Source of the DNA: a virus
DNA: 36,056 nt
Reading direction: 5' to 3' (one strand)
Virus record (IMG/VR): IMGVR_UViG_3300043774_000088
Location: 1 to 36,056 of that record
Part shown: one piece after another, positions 25,919 to 36,056 of the stretch
Numbering within the stretch: the stretch's first letter is position 1
Layout: each line of letters begins with the position of its first letter
The notes under the pieces: generated by a model
Told to the model about the DNA's origin: nothing
Seen by the model: only the letters and a program-made list of their open reading frames with translations
Database searches by the model: none
Program-made: the position numbers and the translations under genes

Positions 25919-26058
25919 TTTCTCTCCTGTAATGAAATCGGCATGTACACACATGCTTTACTTTTTGAATTGACAACAACCACCCCCGAATCCTTATGCC
26001 GCTTGCAATTCATGCACTTGGCATCAGGCTTTTGGGGTTGGCAGCCTAAGTAGTTCAT
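25915..26058 (-). CDS. Cys-containing micro-protein (47 aa)
   Basis: A 47-codon ORF, MNYLGCQPQKPDAKCMNCKR then HKDSGVVVVNSKSKACVYMP and a basic tail. Cys at 6, 15, 18 and 36, with the CMNC knuckle, could bind zinc. Its start overlaps the upstream gene's stop and its stop overlaps the next start, both ATGA. That double coupling, plus a ribosome site for the next gene inside its last codons, supports a real gene. Function is unknown. Confidence 0.6.
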   Translation of the reverse strand: MNYLGCQPQKPDAKCMNCKRHKDSGVVVVNSKSKACVYMPISLQERK

Positions 26059-26273
26059 GCTTCTCTGGCTTTCAGCATTGCGTCTGCCATTTCATAGGCA
26101 GCAGAGGCAAGCGTTTCATCACTTACCAATTTCAGCACTTGACCATTAGCCATCATTCCTTGCATAACCTTGGCCGCAAAGTAATCACGCAAGCTCATGC
26201 CTCTGTCTTTCCCATAATTTGGGTGAAACTGATTTTCAATTGGTGTTGATTGAGGGAATGCTGGTGTATTCAT
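26055..26273 (-). CDS. Small conserved phage protein, SLRDYFAAK type (72 aa)
   Basis: A 72-residue protein from ATG 26273: MNTPAFPQSTPIENQFHPNYG, GMSLRDYFAAKVMQGMMANG and a helical end (ETLASAAYEMADAMLKAREA). The GMSLRDYFAAKVMQG core recurs in small proteins of many phages and prophages, with no function known to me. The four codons before the chosen ATG lie in the upstream micro-gene, whose stop overlaps this start (ATGA). It is soluble with no Cys. Confidence 0.74.
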   Translation of the reverse strand: MNTPAFPQSTPIENQFHPNYGKDRGMSLRDYFAAKVMQGMMANGQVLKLVSDETLASAAYEMADAMLKAREA

Positions 26274-27760: not shown

Positions 27761-28987
27761 ATGCAGTTATTCCCGCATCAGCAAGAGGCCAAGCTCTTCT
27801 TGCTCTCTAGGCGCAGGGCCATACTGGCCGACCAGCCCCGTGTTGGTAAGACGCTACCCACAGCAGCAGCTGCACTAGAAAACCTCCCAGCCTTAATTGT
27901 CTGCCCAGCGATTGCCAAGACAGTCTGGGAGGCGGCTTTCAACAAGCTGGCCCCCAAGACTTCAGTCCATGTCATCAACGGCAAACGCGATGCTGGGCAG
28001 CCAAATTCAGCCGATGTGACCATCATCAACTACGATGTGCTGCAATATGGTGTTACGCATGTGGACAGATATAACGCCCTAGTTCTCGATGAGTGCCATA
28101 GGATCAAGAATCCAAAGGCTGCCAGGACAAAGGCTGCCATGCTGGCCATGAAAAAGATTGGCCATGTCTATGCCCTGTCTGGCACACCAATACCCAATCG
28201 CCCCATTGAGTTGTGGCCCATCTTGCACGGCCTTGGCATCTACCGAGGCGGCTGGTACGACTTTGCGGCCAGATACGCAAAGATGTGGTCGGCGCCATGG
28301 GGCCTAGACACCAGTGGCGCCAGCAATCTGCCAGAGCTGAAAGAACTCATGCGGCCCCATGTCCTTAGACGCAAAAAAGAAAATATCTTCAAGGACTACA
28401 AAGACCCGCAAGTGTCATTGATCACATTTGATTTGGCCAATGACAAGCGAGAGCAGGCATTTGATGCCGATGCATTGGTGGCCAATCCCAACGCCTTAAT
28501 GGCCTTTGAGGGCTTGGCAGAGATCATGCGCGAGGCCGGTATGCGCAAAGTGAAGGCCGCCAGTGAATTCATCGATGATCTCTTACAGGCCAATGAGCCG
28601 GTGGTGGTCTTTGCGCACCACAAGGATGTGGTGGCCGCCTTGCAAGATGAACTGAAAGAACACAAGCCGGTCATTGTGGTGGGAGACACATCACGGGCCA
28701 GACGCGATGCGGCCATCGAGGCTTTCCAGACCGGCAAGACCCAATGCATCATCGGCAACATTGCCGCCATGTCTGAGGGTGTGGACCTCTCGGCTGCCGA
28801 CACCATTGTCTTTGTCGAATGCACTTGGTCCACATCGGCACTGGAGCAGGCCAGTAGCAGGGTCGAGAACATCAACAAATCAGGCATCCCGCCCGTCATC
28901 TACATCCTGACCATCAGGGCATCCCTTGACCACAATGTGCTGGCCAAGGTCTTAAAGAAGCTCAATGTGGTCAACCAGATTATTTGA
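27761..28987 (+). CDS. SNF2-like superfamily 2 helicase (SMARCAL1-type)
   Basis: A 408-residue two-RecA-domain ATPase. Motif I is ADQPRVGKT (residues 23-31, in place of the usual ADxMGxGKT), motif II is LDECH with Asp110-Glu111, motif III is SGTP (140-143) followed by IPNRP. Domain 2 carries VVVFAHHKDVV, SEGVDLSAADTIVFVE and the motif VI-like EQASSRVENIN. This compact form resembles phage SMARCAL1-like enzymes that anneal or remodel forked DNA, without accessory domains. First gene of the rightward early operon; it overlaps nothing downstream but leads directly to the Mom-like gene. Confidence 0.9.
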   Translation: MQLFPHQQEAKLFLLSRRRAILADQPRVGKTLPTAAAALENLPALIVCPAIAKTVWEAAFNKLAPKTSVHVINGKRDAGQPNSADVTIINYDVLQYGVTHVDRYNALVLDECHRIKNPKAARTKAAMLAMKKIGHVYALSGTPIPNRPIELWPILHGLGIYRGGWYDFAARYAKMWSAPWGLDTSGASNLPELKELMRPHVLRRKKENIFKDYKDPQVSLITFDLANDKREQAFDADALVANPNALMAFEGLAEIMREAGMRKVKAASEFIDDLLQANEPVVVFAHHKDVVAALQDELKEHKPVIVVGDTSRARRDAAIEAFQTGKTQCIIGNIAAMSEGVDLSAADTIVFVECTWSTSALEQASSRVENINKSGIPPVIYILTIRASLDHNVLAKVLKKLNVVNQII

Positions 28988-28995
28988 GGCCAGAA

Positions 28996-29634
28996 ATGAA
29001 ATCAGATATTCAGATCAGGATCGCAGAGAGCGAGCAAGACAAGCTGATTGCCGACCAGATAGTCGAGCAGCACCACAGCTATGTGGCCAGCTCAAAGACT
29101 GTGGGCCGATGCCTTAAATACATCATCAAGCACCAGAACAAAGACATCGGCACATTCTGGATTGGCAGTGGATTCAAGCCAACACCCAAGGCAATACTGA
29201 ATTACTTTTCCATGTCTCAAAGCCAGTTTGACAAGATTTTTAACGAAGTCGCTGACAACAAAAGATTCTGTATGCGCGAGCAAATCCCCAATGCTGGCAC
29301 TCAAATACTGAGCAGCATCAGGAAGCGCGCAAAGCTAGATTGGTTTGAGTATTACAACAACGACCTGAGAGCCATCATCACCACCATTGGCGGCAACAAG
29401 CCTGGCTCGGTTTATCTGGCCGACAACTGGACCAAGATCGGCGAGACATCAGGGCTGCCAGAAAACAGGGAATCAGTCTCAATGAAATGGAATGACGCCA
29501 ACGAAATCAATGACCGGTTTGTCAAGCCAGATGGCGAGAACAAAAAGACAATCCTTATCACCAGCAACTTGCCACTGTCAAGACACCATAAACACCTAAT
29601 TAGTCTCGGCCCAAAGCAAGCAACACTTATTTAA
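28996..29634 (+). CDS. Mom/DUF4338-like putative DNA-modification protein (212 aa)
   Basis: A 212-residue protein from ATG 28996, with GAGG at suitable distance. The N-terminal QIVEQHHSYVASSKTVGRCLKYII and the C-terminal PGSVYLADNWTKIGETSGL resemble the GNAT-related Mom/DUF4338 group; that G-(S/T)-x-Y-x-A-x-NW-x-x-(I/V)-GET-x-G element is its strongest sign. Mu Mom converts adenine in phage DNA to a carbamoylmethyl form that resists restriction. Similarity here is by motif only and substrate is unknown; DUF4338 also occurs in unrelated contexts. It lies between a helicase and a nuclease in the early operon. Confidence 0.6.
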   Translation: MKSDIQIRIAESEQDKLIADQIVEQHHSYVASSKTVGRCLKYIIKHQNKDIGTFWIGSGFKPTPKAILNYFSMSQSQFDKIFNEVADNKRFCMREQIPNAGTQILSSIRKRAKLDWFEYYNNDLRAIITTIGGNKPGSVYLADNWTKIGETSGLPENRESVSMKWNDANEINDRFVKPDGENKKTILITSNLPLSRHHKHLISLGPKQATLI

Positions 29635-29646
29635 CCAGGAGAAACC

Positions 29647-30654
29647 ATGCAACATGAAACCCGTAAACACGCCCGACTCTCAGCATCCCGCACCGACAGA
29701 TTCATGCAATGCCCAGGCAGCTACAGACTCGAATCCCTCATGCCCTACGAGCCAGCCGGTGAGGCTGCTGCCATCGGCACAGCAATCCATGAACTCTCTG
29801 AGATCATTCTGTCTGGCCATGCAATCCCTGCCAACACCGACAAGGACCACATTGCGATGGCCCAAAGCTATGCAGACTTTGTCAACAATCTGGTCGAGAA
29901 TCCGCGCAAAAAGCTCATCGAAGTGAGCCTCGATGAAGGCCTCAAATCCCTGCACCCAGCGCTTGGCGGCACAGCCGATGCAGTCCTAGTCGATGGGGAC
30001 CACCTCCATGTCGTGGACCTCAAGACTGGCCGTGTGGCCGTAGACGCTACAGACAACAAGCAGCTGCTTACCTATGCCCTTGGCGCCATGAGGCAATTCA
30101 AGGCGCCAGAGCGCATCACATGCACCATGCACATCTTCCAGCCCCGTGTCGGCCACAGCAAGTGGACAGTCACAGGCCAAGACCTGATCGAGCATGGCCA
30201 GCGCCTGAAGGCCGCAGCCGAGCTGGCGCTCACAAGCGATGCACCAACAAGCCCATCACCCGATGCCTGCCGGTACTGCCGCGCCAAGACCATCTGCCCA
30301 TCCATGCGCGAAAAGGTCCAAGAGGCCGCCAGAAGCGATTTCAAACCCGACACCACTGTCACCCCTGAGATGCTGGACAACGCAGCTCTGGTGGCCGCAT
30401 GGGCCGATGCAGTGCAGTCTGCCGCCAAAGATCAAATTGCCAACGGCCAAGCAATCACCGGCTGGACCATGCGAGCTGGCCGTAAGACCAAATTCTGGAA
30501 GGATGAGAAGCTGGTCATGGAGGCATTCAAAGACAACTTGAAAGTGTGGGAGCTGAAGTCCCCCAGCGCTGTCTTAAAACTCGGGGTCGAAGTTTCCGAA
30601 GACCTAGTCGGTGAGAAGGTGGCTGCGGCCAGTCTTGTCAGGGCCAAGGAATAG
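29647..30654 (+). CDS. DUF2800 protein, Cas4-like PD-(D/E)XK nuclease with Fe-S cysteines
   Basis: A 335-residue predicted nuclease. SRTDRFMQCPGS gives Cys22, GTAIHE has His48-Glu49, GGTADAVLV has Asp111 and VVDLKTGR has Asp124 and Lys126, then QLLTYALG completes the fold. CRYCRAKTICP places Cys at 208, 211 and 217. One N-terminal plus three C-terminal Cys is the 4Fe-4S arrangement of Cas4 and AddB nucleases. Probable role is phage DNA recombination or end processing. AGGAGA lies before the ATG. Confidence 0.88.
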   Translation: MQHETRKHARLSASRTDRFMQCPGSYRLESLMPYEPAGEAAAIGTAIHELSEIILSGHAIPANTDKDHIAMAQSYADFVNNLVENPRKKLIEVSLDEGLKSLHPALGGTADAVLVDGDHLHVVDLKTGRVAVDATDNKQLLTYALGAMRQFKAPERITCTMHIFQPRVGHSKWTVTGQDLIEHGQRLKAAAELALTSDAPTSPSPDACRYCRAKTICPSMREKVQEAARSDFKPDTTVTPEMLDNAALVAAWADAVQSAAKDQIANGQAITGWTMRAGRKTKFWKDEKLVMEAFKDNLKVWELKSPSAVLKLGVEVSEDLVGEKVAAASLVRAKE

Positions 30655-30710: not shown

Positions 30711-30762
30711 AAAGTTCAACTCTCATGGCAACTAAATGAAACCCCAAACCAAAGGAATTTCA

Positions 30763-32931
30763 GTGTCAATCATAACTGAAACACCCCAAAACAATGTATT
30801 CCAGCAGTCCCAAAGTGTGGCCTGCAAGATAGGCGCAGTCGCCCCTGATGCTGTCTTTTGTACCTTTGCCCTGCAAGGCTCTAAAAAGATTCCATTTAAG
30901 CGAAGCGGCCAAGGTGTGGCACGGGACACAGACCCATCAGACCTCTACAGTGCCGAGGACATCTGGTCCATGGAAGATGCCCCACACGGCCAATACCTTG
31001 GCCTAGTCCAGCAGCGCCCCATCATCAGCCCATCAGGCGACTATCTGGTCTGCCTCGATGTGGATATGAAACACGCAAGTGGCCCGACCAATGTGGCCAT
31101 CCAGCGCATGGCAAAGTATGTCAAGGCCAACAACATGCTGACCGAAGTGTCAGTCAGTGGCCGTGGCCGCCATGTCTTCTTGTGGGTCAAAGCTCCACCC
31201 ACCAAAGACCTGATCCTCCCCAAGTACAAGCTGGGCGGCGGCCAAGAGCTTGAAGTATTTGGTCTACCAAACAGTGCAGGCAAGTCAGTGCTACTGAGTG
31301 GCAACGCTGTGGCTGGTGAATTCCAAGAGGCCGTAGACCTCTACGATTTGCTCCAAGATTGGGGGATCATCGAGCAGCACCAGCTCCAAGAGCCAAAGCC
31401 TGCCCCATCAGCGCCACCAAGCCAATCATTTGACTTCACACAATTAGGCTCAAGGCTTGAAGACAGCGATATTGATCGTGCCATCAAGGCTTTGCACCAC
31501 ATCAGCCCAGACTGCGACTATGACCAGTGGATCGAGATTGGCCAAGCGCTGCATACAGAATTTGGCGAAGCCGGCCTCGGCCCATGGATGACATGGTCCA
31601 TGGCTGGCGCCAAGTTTGCCGGCACAAAGGACATTGAAGTCCACTGGAAGAGCTTTCACCAGGGCAAGGGTGTTGGCATCGGCACACTCTTCAAACACGC
31701 CAAAGACTGTGGCTGGGAGCCTCCAACAAAGCAGTCCGAGCGCAAGTCAGCGGTGGAAGACTTTGCAGCTGTGATCAGCCAAGCACAGGCGCCAGCTGCG
31801 CCAGTGGCCACCACAGAAGCACCATCACCCCAAGGCTGGCCAGAGCGCCAGCTATCGATTGGCGCCATCAAACCCATCCGCTACATGGTCAAAGGCTTTT
31901 GGGCGCACAGCTTCATGGTGCTAGCCGGTCAGCCTGGCATCGGCAAGACCACAGCAGTGATCTCTCTGTGCATGGTCATGGCAGGCATTAAGGCCAAGGA
32001 CTGCGAACTCACAGCCACCAAAAAACGCAAAACAATCATAGTCACCGAAGACTCGGACCAAGTTGAAAGAACTCTTACCGGCTACGCACGGCATTATGGG
32101 ATTAACTCTCAAACATTATCCCAATGGTTTGTCATTATCGATGCCAAGCGATCAAATGTGAAGGATTTACTTATGCTTGCACATAATGTAATAAATCACA
32201 CGATTGATAATATCAGGCCATTATTGGTATTAGACACGGCCAATGCCACGATGGATATTGATAATGAGAATGACAATAGTGAAGTGGGTGCTTATATTGC
32301 AGCCTTAAAACAAACAATCTATATCCAGCTGGACACGCCAGTGTGCATCATCACACACACCAACAAGACCATCAGCAAGGCCGACTCAGATGCCACAGCC
32401 CGTGGAGCTTCTGCATTCACCGGTGATGCCACATTGACGGGTGTCCTGTTTGAAGACGAAACAAAAACAAGATACATGCGCCTGGTCAAGACAAGATACC
32501 AGCCCAATTTCAGGGAGATTAAATTCAACTCCGATGTCTTTGCAGACACTGTGCTGGATGAAGACGGGGACATCCAAGAGCAGATGGTGCTGCTTGTCGT
32601 GCCAGAAAAGTCATCAGAGGATGACCGCAGGCAAGCAGCCAATGATCGGCAGAACGATAAACGGCAGCAGCAAGTCCAAGACGCCGCAGATGCTGCCTGC
32701 AACTTTGTCCAGTCCATCATCAACGCGAAAGGCGCTGTCATCATGCGCAGAGGCTCTGGCCGGCCAGCTGTGCCAAAAGAACTCCAGCACATGCACCAGC
32801 TGGAATGGCAAGACATTTACCAGGCAGTGCCACAGGCCGACCAAAGCTACGCAAGACGGGCGGTCAGCAGCGCCATATTCCAGCGCTTCTGCATGGACCA
32901 AGCAAGCAGCGGATGGGTGCAAATAAAGTAA
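30763..32931 (+). CDS. Primase-helicase (prim-pol, PriCT and RepA-like ATPase domains)
   Basis: A 722-residue replication protein from GTG 30763, chosen because AAAGGA lies five to six bases before it; ATG 30736 lacks a site. An AEP-type primase/polymerase domain comes first (LVCLDVDMK with Asp99 and Asp101; SGRGRHVFLWV with His127). A PriCT-like domain follows (DIDRAIKALHHISPDCDYDQWIEIG). The C-terminal RecA-like ATPase has Walker A GQPGIGKT (379-386) and Walker B LLVLDTA (Asp480), and ends in a possible winged-helix region. It likely initiates replication at the adjacent iterons, making primers and unwinding DNA for a host polymerase. Confidence 0.88.
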   Translation: MSIITETPQNNVFQQSQSVACKIGAVAPDAVFCTFALQGSKKIPFKRSGQGVARDTDPSDLYSAEDIWSMEDAPHGQYLGLVQQRPIISPSGDYLVCLDVDMKHASGPTNVAIQRMAKYVKANNMLTEVSVSGRGRHVFLWVKAPPTKDLILPKYKLGGGQELEVFGLPNSAGKSVLLSGNAVAGEFQEAVDLYDLLQDWGIIEQHQLQEPKPAPSAPPSQSFDFTQLGSRLEDSDIDRAIKALHHISPDCDYDQWIEIGQALHTEFGEAGLGPWMTWSMAGAKFAGTKDIEVHWKSFHQGKGVGIGTLFKHAKDCGWEPPTKQSERKSAVEDFAAVISQAQAPAAPVATTEAPSPQGWPERQLSIGAIKPIRYMVKGFWAHSFMVLAGQPGIGKTTAVISLCMVMAGIKAKDCELTATKKRKTIIVTEDSDQVERTLTGYARHYGINSQTLSQWFVIIDAKRSNVKDLLMLAHNVINHTIDNIRPLLVLDTANATMDIDNENDNSEVGAYIAALKQTIYIQLDTPVCIITHTNKTISKADSDATARGASAFTGDATLTGVLFEDETKTRYMRLVKTRYQPNFREIKFNSDVFADTVLDEDGDIQEQMVLLVVPEKSSEDDRRQAANDRQNDKRQQQVQDAADAACNFVQSIINAKGAVIMRRGSGRPAVPKELQHMHQLEWQDIYQAVPQADQSYARRAVSSAIFQRFCMDQASSGWVQIK

Positions 32932-35561: not shown

Positions 35562-36056
35562 GTAAAGAAAATGTGTTTGCTGTGTGGGTGCAGAGGTATC
35601 AGCCTGACCCTGTGCTGTTTGTGCAAGAGGTTTTGGGGGTTGACCCTGACCCGTGGCAAGTGAAGTTTTTGCAGGCGATAGCGAGAGGGGACCGCAAGAT
35701 TAGTGTCAGGTCTGGCCACGGGGTGGGTAAATCCACTGCAAGCAGCTGGGCCATGCTCTGGTACTTTATGACCAGAAGTCCGGTCAAGGTGGTGGTGACT
35801 GCGCCGACAAGCAGTCAGCTTTATGACGCGATGTTTGCGGAGCTAAAGAGGTGGATCAATGCGATGCCACTGCCCTTGCAGGGGCTGCTGACAGTCAAGC
35901 AGGAAAGGATTGAATTCAATGCTGCGCCCACTGAGATGTTCATAAGTGCCAGGACAAGCAGGGCAGAGCAGCCAGAGGCTTTGCAGGGGATTCACAGTGA
36001 GAATGTGATGCTGGTGGCCGATGAGGCTTCTGGTGTGCCAGAGCAAGTGTTCGAGG
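35558..36056 (+). CDS. terL: Terminase large subunit, N-terminal part (gene split by contig ends)
   Basis: The start of the packaging ATPase, whose remainder is at 1-1211. ATG 35558 is in an ATGA overlap with the preceding gene. The N-terminus has DPDPWQVKFLQAI (adenine-binding Q-motif-like) and the Walker A loop SGHGVGKST (Gly53-Thr60). The following WYFMTRSPVKVVVTAPTSSQ is motif Ia-like. The last 300 bases duplicate the start of the contig. The gene is not truly truncated; the break is where the circle was opened. Confidence 0.93.
   Translation, partial: MSKENVFAVWVQRYQPDPVLFVQEVLGVDPDPWQVKFLQAIARGDRKISVRSGHGVGKSTASSWAMLWYFMTRSPVKVVVTAPTSSQLYDAMFAELKRWINAMPLPLQGLLTVKQERIEFNAAPTEMFISARTSRAEQPEALQGIHSENVMLVADEASGVPEQVFE
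35757..36056. repeat. Terminal direct repeat, right copy (contig overlap)
   Basis: Matches 1-300 with three differences, all at third codon positions of terL and all silent (Asn, Ala, Pro). Removing one copy leaves a genome of about 35,756 bp. Confidence 0.93.

Follow-up and report, generated by a model that had tools for sequence, protein, structure and literature searches.

Phage Mu uses the enzyme Mom to disguise its DNA, and the product of this enzyme is N6-carbamoylmethyl-adenine. DruA is a signature protein of Druantia, a widespread anti-phage system, and we know of no biochemical activity for it. A gene product of an environmental virus had been likened by eye to both families (Mom/DUF4338), which raises the question of whether this virus also modifies its DNA, and whether its protein is closer to the phage enzyme or to the defence protein.

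Genomic setting of the gene

We analysed the 36,056-base virus record IMGVR_UViG_3300043774_000088, the whole of which we call the window. A 300-base direct terminal repeat (1–300 and 35757–36056, 99% identical) indicates that the window is probably a complete genome of ~35.76 kb. Its genes include those for a large terminase, a 740-aa portal, a scaffold, a major head protein, and a DNA ejection protein; this set fits a short-tailed phage. An Rfam search of the window gave no match, and scans of the window for promoters (14 versus 8.4 expected) and terminators (17 versus 11.5 expected) were set aside as evidence. Approximately 211 bases (26058–26268) are missing from the otherwise collinear relative L006.

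The open reading frame of interest runs from an ATG at 28996, with an alternative TTG start at 28984, to a stop codon ending at 29634 (Table 1). Since its dN/dS between close relatives is 0.03–0.11 and it has ~195 relatives, we judge it to be a real gene under strong purifying selection. A GAGG motif ahead of it shares bases with the stop codon that ends the 408-aa helicase gene upstream, and the two genes are probably translationally coupled. The gene is placed in the replication module, and a replication-gene context is found in many relatives as well. The original prediction had spoken of an early operon, which gene content supports in part: the neighbours are replication genes.

Table 1. 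Gene of interest and context genes in the window
Feature	Position	Strand	Evidence
DruA/Mom-superfamily phage protein, GNAT fold, 212 aa	28996..29634	+	ORF, profiles, AlphaFold, residues
SNF2/DEAD-type helicase, directly upstream of the gene at 28996	27761..28987	+	profile matches
DUF2800 / PD-(D/E)XK exonuclease-type protein, starting 12 nt after the stop of the gene at 28996	29647..30654	+	profile matches
Primase-helicase (PriCT_2 + AAA_25)	30736..32931	+	profile matches
C5-cytosine DNA methyltransferase; context gene, linked to the GNAT protein by co-occurrence in the genome	24306..25646	-	

Sequence profiles link the protein to DruA and Mom

Searched alone, the window protein matched the "Mom-like" PHROG family phrog_1384 (E=1.3e-4), and Pfam hmmscan returned no family for it, PF14236 included. 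Across an aligned set of 38 members, the Mom-like PHROG was matched by 31, Pfam DruA/DUF4338 (PF14236) by 22 (best 6e-13), and Pfam Mom (PF25680) by three (best 0.005). Homologues in two large phages pass the Pfam DruA cut-off, at 39–41 bits versus 27. PADLOC gave one marginal DruA match, and PDB sequence searches returned chance-level matches only.

To compare the families directly, we made one profile for each, with 16 sequences for bacterial DruA, 15 for phage Mom, and 37 for the branch. With the DruA HMM, the window protein scored E=1.5e-11 and all 37 family members were recovered, whereas the Mom HMM, built in the same way, reached only E=0.035 for the window protein. Four Escherichia coli control proteins, RimI, SpeG, HolD, and YjjG (two GNATs among them), gave no match to the DruA HMM. 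With hhalign, the branch aligned to DruA at a probability of 99.0 and a score of 127 (null maximum 18), collinear over 182 columns, and to Mom at 95.8 and a score of 63 (null maximum 22.5); DruA and Mom aligned to each other at 97.3 and a score of 84. The null consisted of reversed and column-shuffled controls, all of which scored 22.5 or less. Because a lone Mu Mom sequence gave too little signal in hhalign (probability 7), the 15-sequence Mom profile was used.

On the strength of these profiles, DruA, Mom, and the window branch are homologous, with the window branch nearest DruA. The window protein itself almost certainly belongs to the DruA/Mom superfamily. The likeness first noticed by eye therefore exceeds chance, with both families linked far above shuffled controls, and profiles, fold, and common residues agree on superfamily membership; as a guess at the family it was right but can be narrowed, with the protein lying closer to DruA/DUF4338 than to Mom. 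Both peptides quoted as the basis of that likeness occur in the protein: the N-terminal one, HHSYVASSKTVGRCLKYII, spans residues 26–44, and the other, PGSVYLADNWTKIGETSGL, spans residues 136–154, which is mid-to-late in the protein rather than at the C-terminus as had been described.

Relatives and their gene neighbourhoods

A two-motif scan of IMG/VR found at least 195 relatives of the protein, and we kept 80, ranging from 100% down to ~45% identity. We found no match among 50,697 deposited phage records (INPHARED) using tblastn with three members at E≤0.01; weak matches at 0.09, seen at a relaxed limit, were discarded. Within the limits of this search, the branch seems to be absent from cultured phages. 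One member with 61% identity (L099:291-920) comes from a contig of 5.3 kb that was binned into a Planctomycetota genome, but the contig may be misbinned, as the ORFs around the branch member look phage-like.

Other DruA-like proteins occur in phages. Those reported with Phold from Synechococcus phages are phage-encoded like the window branch (PMC12774648). Although these phages have GenBank entries, tblastn of three branch members against the deposited phage collection gave no match at E≤0.01, so the window branch looks like a separate one. Four large uncultured phages (G002, G005, G006, and G007) encode, in the same genome as a window-branch member, further DruA-like proteins that are divergent, one or two in each (L101–L105, ~340–425 aa). 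These score above the PF14236 cut-off and reach a probability of 96.9 against bacterial DruA and 81.6 against the window branch. They differ from the window branch, whose members are compact (190–212 aa), in being longer and in lacking the YxAxNW motif.

The genes next to relatives vary and include a helicase loader, clamp loader, DnaB, primase/helicase, RusA resolvase, endolysin, terminase, and others. No neighbour family was matched by more than five of the 103 neighbour proteins scanned, and these 103 yielded no conserved partner gene or restriction endonuclease. In T4-like large phages, a gp33-like ORF lies before the branch gene and gp59- or gp32-like genes come after it, as judged by eye; helicase loader matches were also found among the scanned neighbours. 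Compared with Druantia type I, where druBCDE surround druA, the window gene sits in a phage replication module and not in a Druantia operon, and the genes adjoining it gave no match to a DruE-type helicase (DUF1998).

The start of Mu mom is overlapped by a gene for a Com-like zinc-finger translational activator. We found no Com-like gene upstream of the window gene, where the 408-aa helicase is encoded instead, and the upstream genes of relatives are diverse. An ORF of ~73 aa upstream of the gene in T4-like relatives was considered as Com-like and rejected, since by eye it resembles the late-transcription protein gp33 and has no zinc finger.

Conserved residues

In a merged alignment, with Mu Mom numbered on its 231-aa protein, Mom residues H48, Y49, R101, and S114 pair with H27, Y29, R90, and T102 of the window protein, and G146, Y149, A151, N153, and G158 pair with G137, Y140, A142, N144, and G149. 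These positions, together with the GNAT fold, are what the branch shares with Mu Mom and phage Mom-like proteins (PF25680, phrog_1384). Six residues conserved in both Mom and DruA are retained in the branch (H27, Y29, R90, S/T102, Y140, and N144), with Ser or Thr at position 102 in every member. From the two numberings we infer an offset of 10, by which S114 would be S124 in 8bv8; the S124A mutant of Mu Mom is titled "inactive" in this structure record. The catalytic role of S124 is taken from that title, and those of all other Mom residues are suggested by conservation.

With DruA/DUF4338, the branch shares H..Y, VG..L.Y, N-N-x-R-F (D-N-K-R-F in the branch), N-x-[AG]-[ST], DW...YG, and G..Y.A.NW..[LI]G.T.G. 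The N-x-G-S/T motif, which resembles an acyl-CoA loop, is invariant in the branch. Relative to bacterial DruA, the branch lacks an N-terminal extension and a fused transposase, has Gly in place of the conserved Asp/Glu of TFVD, and carries motifs of its own (D143, P-x-P-K, S-x-S-x-K-W, and KPTGENKK).

Fifteen phage Moms share the invariant set H48, Y49, E98, R101, S114, D139, Y149, N153, H173, and Y207, from which the branch keeps H, Y, R, S/T, Y, and N but not the full set. The D139 position is Gly132 in the window protein, and across the branch is Gly in 97% and Ala in 3% (one member). In bacterial DruA this position, within the TFV[D/E] motif, is Asp or Glu in most sequences but not all, so that the acidic residue is typical of DruA rather than strictly defining. 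The E98 position is Asp or Asn in the branch, and the Mom-only residues H173 and Y207 are absent. Eleven residues after Gly132, D143 is invariant in the branch; at this position Ala is found in DruA and, for the most part, Ser in Mom. It is a guess that D143 takes the place of D139.

These differences bear on whether the protein is a true Mom, making N6-carbamoylmethyl-adenine as in phage Mu. The Mom-like PHROG matches across the aligned set would fit such an enzyme, as would the ranking of Mu Mom as the best structural match, but the Mom HMM scores far below the DruA HMM, D139, E98, H173, and Y207 are not conserved, and no Com-like regulator lies upstream. We therefore regard a true Mom as highly improbable. 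Adenine hypermodification, as originally proposed, is unproven because the protein is nearer DruA, is without Mom D139, H173, and Y207, and has no Com partner.

Predicted fold

AlphaFold2, run on the alignment, modelled the window protein with a pLDDT of 83.5 and a pTM of 0.77, and a member ~45% identical to it (L054) with a pLDDT of 82.0. Against solved structures, both models ranked Mu Mom (8bv8) first, at Z 13.3 (rmsd 3.9, 174 residues) for the window protein and Z 14.6 (rmsd 3.4, 165 residues) for L054. Generic GNATs came behind Mom at Z 11–12.9 for the window-protein model, and RimI and many GNATs reached Z 11–13.7 across both models. Chains at Z≥8 numbered 741 and 837 of the 999 compared for the two models, and the top chains were GNATs. 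The first PDB matches in Foldseek were generic acetyltransferases. With structural matches within 1 Z counted as tied, the models predict a GNAT fold, and Mom as the best but not the sole match, with other GNATs within ~1 Z. The fold alone therefore does not settle the substrate.

This closeness of RimI and many other GNATs to Mom, along with the Foldseek result, could mean that the protein is an ordinary GNAT acting on protein, RNA, or a small molecule, and that its likeness to Mom and DruA is one of common fold only. We consider this improbable, as sequence profiles tie the branch to DruA and Mom and not to RimI or SpeG, and Mom came first for two separate models. Additionally, the collinear motifs common to the branch, DruA, and Mom (H..Y, NxxR, NxxS/T, and GxxYxAxNW..G) are not general GNAT motifs.

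Possible DNA protection

The DNA of T7 is unmodified and that of T4 is hypermodified. Observed/expected ratios of 6-mer palindromes were 0.66 in the window, 0.58 in T7, 0.60 in Mu, and 0.93 in T4. Palindrome avoidance in the window is like that of Mu and T7 and is not relieved, which gives no support to T4-like hypermodification of the whole genome. However, Mu avoids palindromes despite Mom, so the test excludes only complete protection of the T4 type, and the statistics are neutral on partial modification of the Mom type. The earlier suggestion of hypermodified DNA thus finds no sign of T4-like protection here, but is plausible by homology with Mom. ACGT is strongly depleted across the whole window, with the lowest observed/expected ratio (0.18) among the 16 four-base palindromes. 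AAGCTT is absent from the window.

The C5-cytosine methyltransferase that the original prediction had placed elsewhere in the genome is present (Table 1). In L006 and L001, phages 95%–96% identical to the window elsewhere, its ends are near-identical and its central region (~residues 225–390) is replaced, an apparent exchange of target-recognition segments. We take this swap as indirect evidence of restriction pressure, and it lends indirect support to the idea that the phage layers its DNA protection.

Proposed function

The most likely reading, to which we give a probability of about 0.5, is that the protein is a stand-alone phage acyltransferase of the DruA branch that is directed at DNA and may protect phage DNA, with its chemistry and target put forward by inference. 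Homology with Mom, the retained conserved residues, and the replication context argue for it; the loss of D139, the palindrome avoidance, the lack of a known activity for DruA, and the lack of a fixed partner argue against. In such an enzyme, the N-x-G-S/T loop, where the central helix begins, would hold an acyl-CoA, and the substrate would be phage DNA that has just been synthesised next to the replication proteins. With H27, Y29, R90, S/T102, Y140, and N144, the enzyme would transfer a small group onto the amino group of a base, and the modified base could block some host restriction enzymes. The branch-invariant D143 may replace the missing Mom aspartate, and the added group or the target may therefore differ from the N6-carbamoylmethyl-adenine of Mom.

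Alternatively, the protein may have kept the Mom/DruA fold without base-modifying activity, and its task would then be to bind DNA or a partner. It might, for instance, assist the replication module, or act against defence systems that contain DruA (Druantia), either as a decoy or as an antagonist. The loss of Mom D139, H173, and Y207 across the branch, the location of the gene in the replication module, and the defence protein DruA as nearest relative are consistent with this. We consider it unlikely, given that six Mom/DruA residues stay invariant or Ser/Thr, that N-x-G-S/T is invariant, and that an invariant Asp (D143) is nearby.

A more specific form of the acyltransferase reading, which we put forward tentatively and think unlikely as a whole, is that this branch of uncultured phages installs a base modification unlike that of Mom, with the active-site acid moved from D139 to D143, and that the same kind of chemistry would be that of DruA in Druantia and in IS66-type elements. 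If true, it would supply the missing biochemical function of DruA. The profile link between DruA and Mom, which has a known DNA-modifying role and a solved structure, makes DruA activity directly testable, and the compact phage branch, with ~200 known relatives, offers a convenient protein for doing so. If the branch modifies DNA, it would add a new way for environmental phages to escape restriction.

DruA on mobile DNA

Bacterial DruA proteins were also found with transposases. A protein on a Thiodictyon plasmid (L084:2905-4239), annotated as an ISAs1 transposase, carries a DruA domain at its N-terminus, joined to a transposase part of the ISAs1 type. In a Planctomycetota genome (G130), DruA lies with a transposase, which we read as IS66-type, in a 2.42-kb repeat with ~80-bp inverted ends (L113:1063-3480). 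The fusion and the IS66-type unit together show that DruA is associated not only with Druantia but also with mobile DNA.

Accordingly, a phage-borne DruA might not protect the genome of its own phage but instead be used for attack or exclusion, against other phages or the DNA of the host, or for the mobility of DNA. Such a role would fit the ISAs1-type fusion and the IS66-type unit, which is present in several copies and ends in inverted repeats, as well as the more divergent DruA proteins, one or two each, of the large phages. Mom domains of jumbo phages can also be fused to nucleases (PMC7824862). The window protein, however, has a single domain, to which neither a nuclease nor a transposase is fused, and neither is consistently encoded beside it; we consider this role very unlikely. 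Within G130 there are nine DruA matches, and the five copies compared all have the whole 2.42-kb unit; a further genome, G096, has 14 DruA matches.
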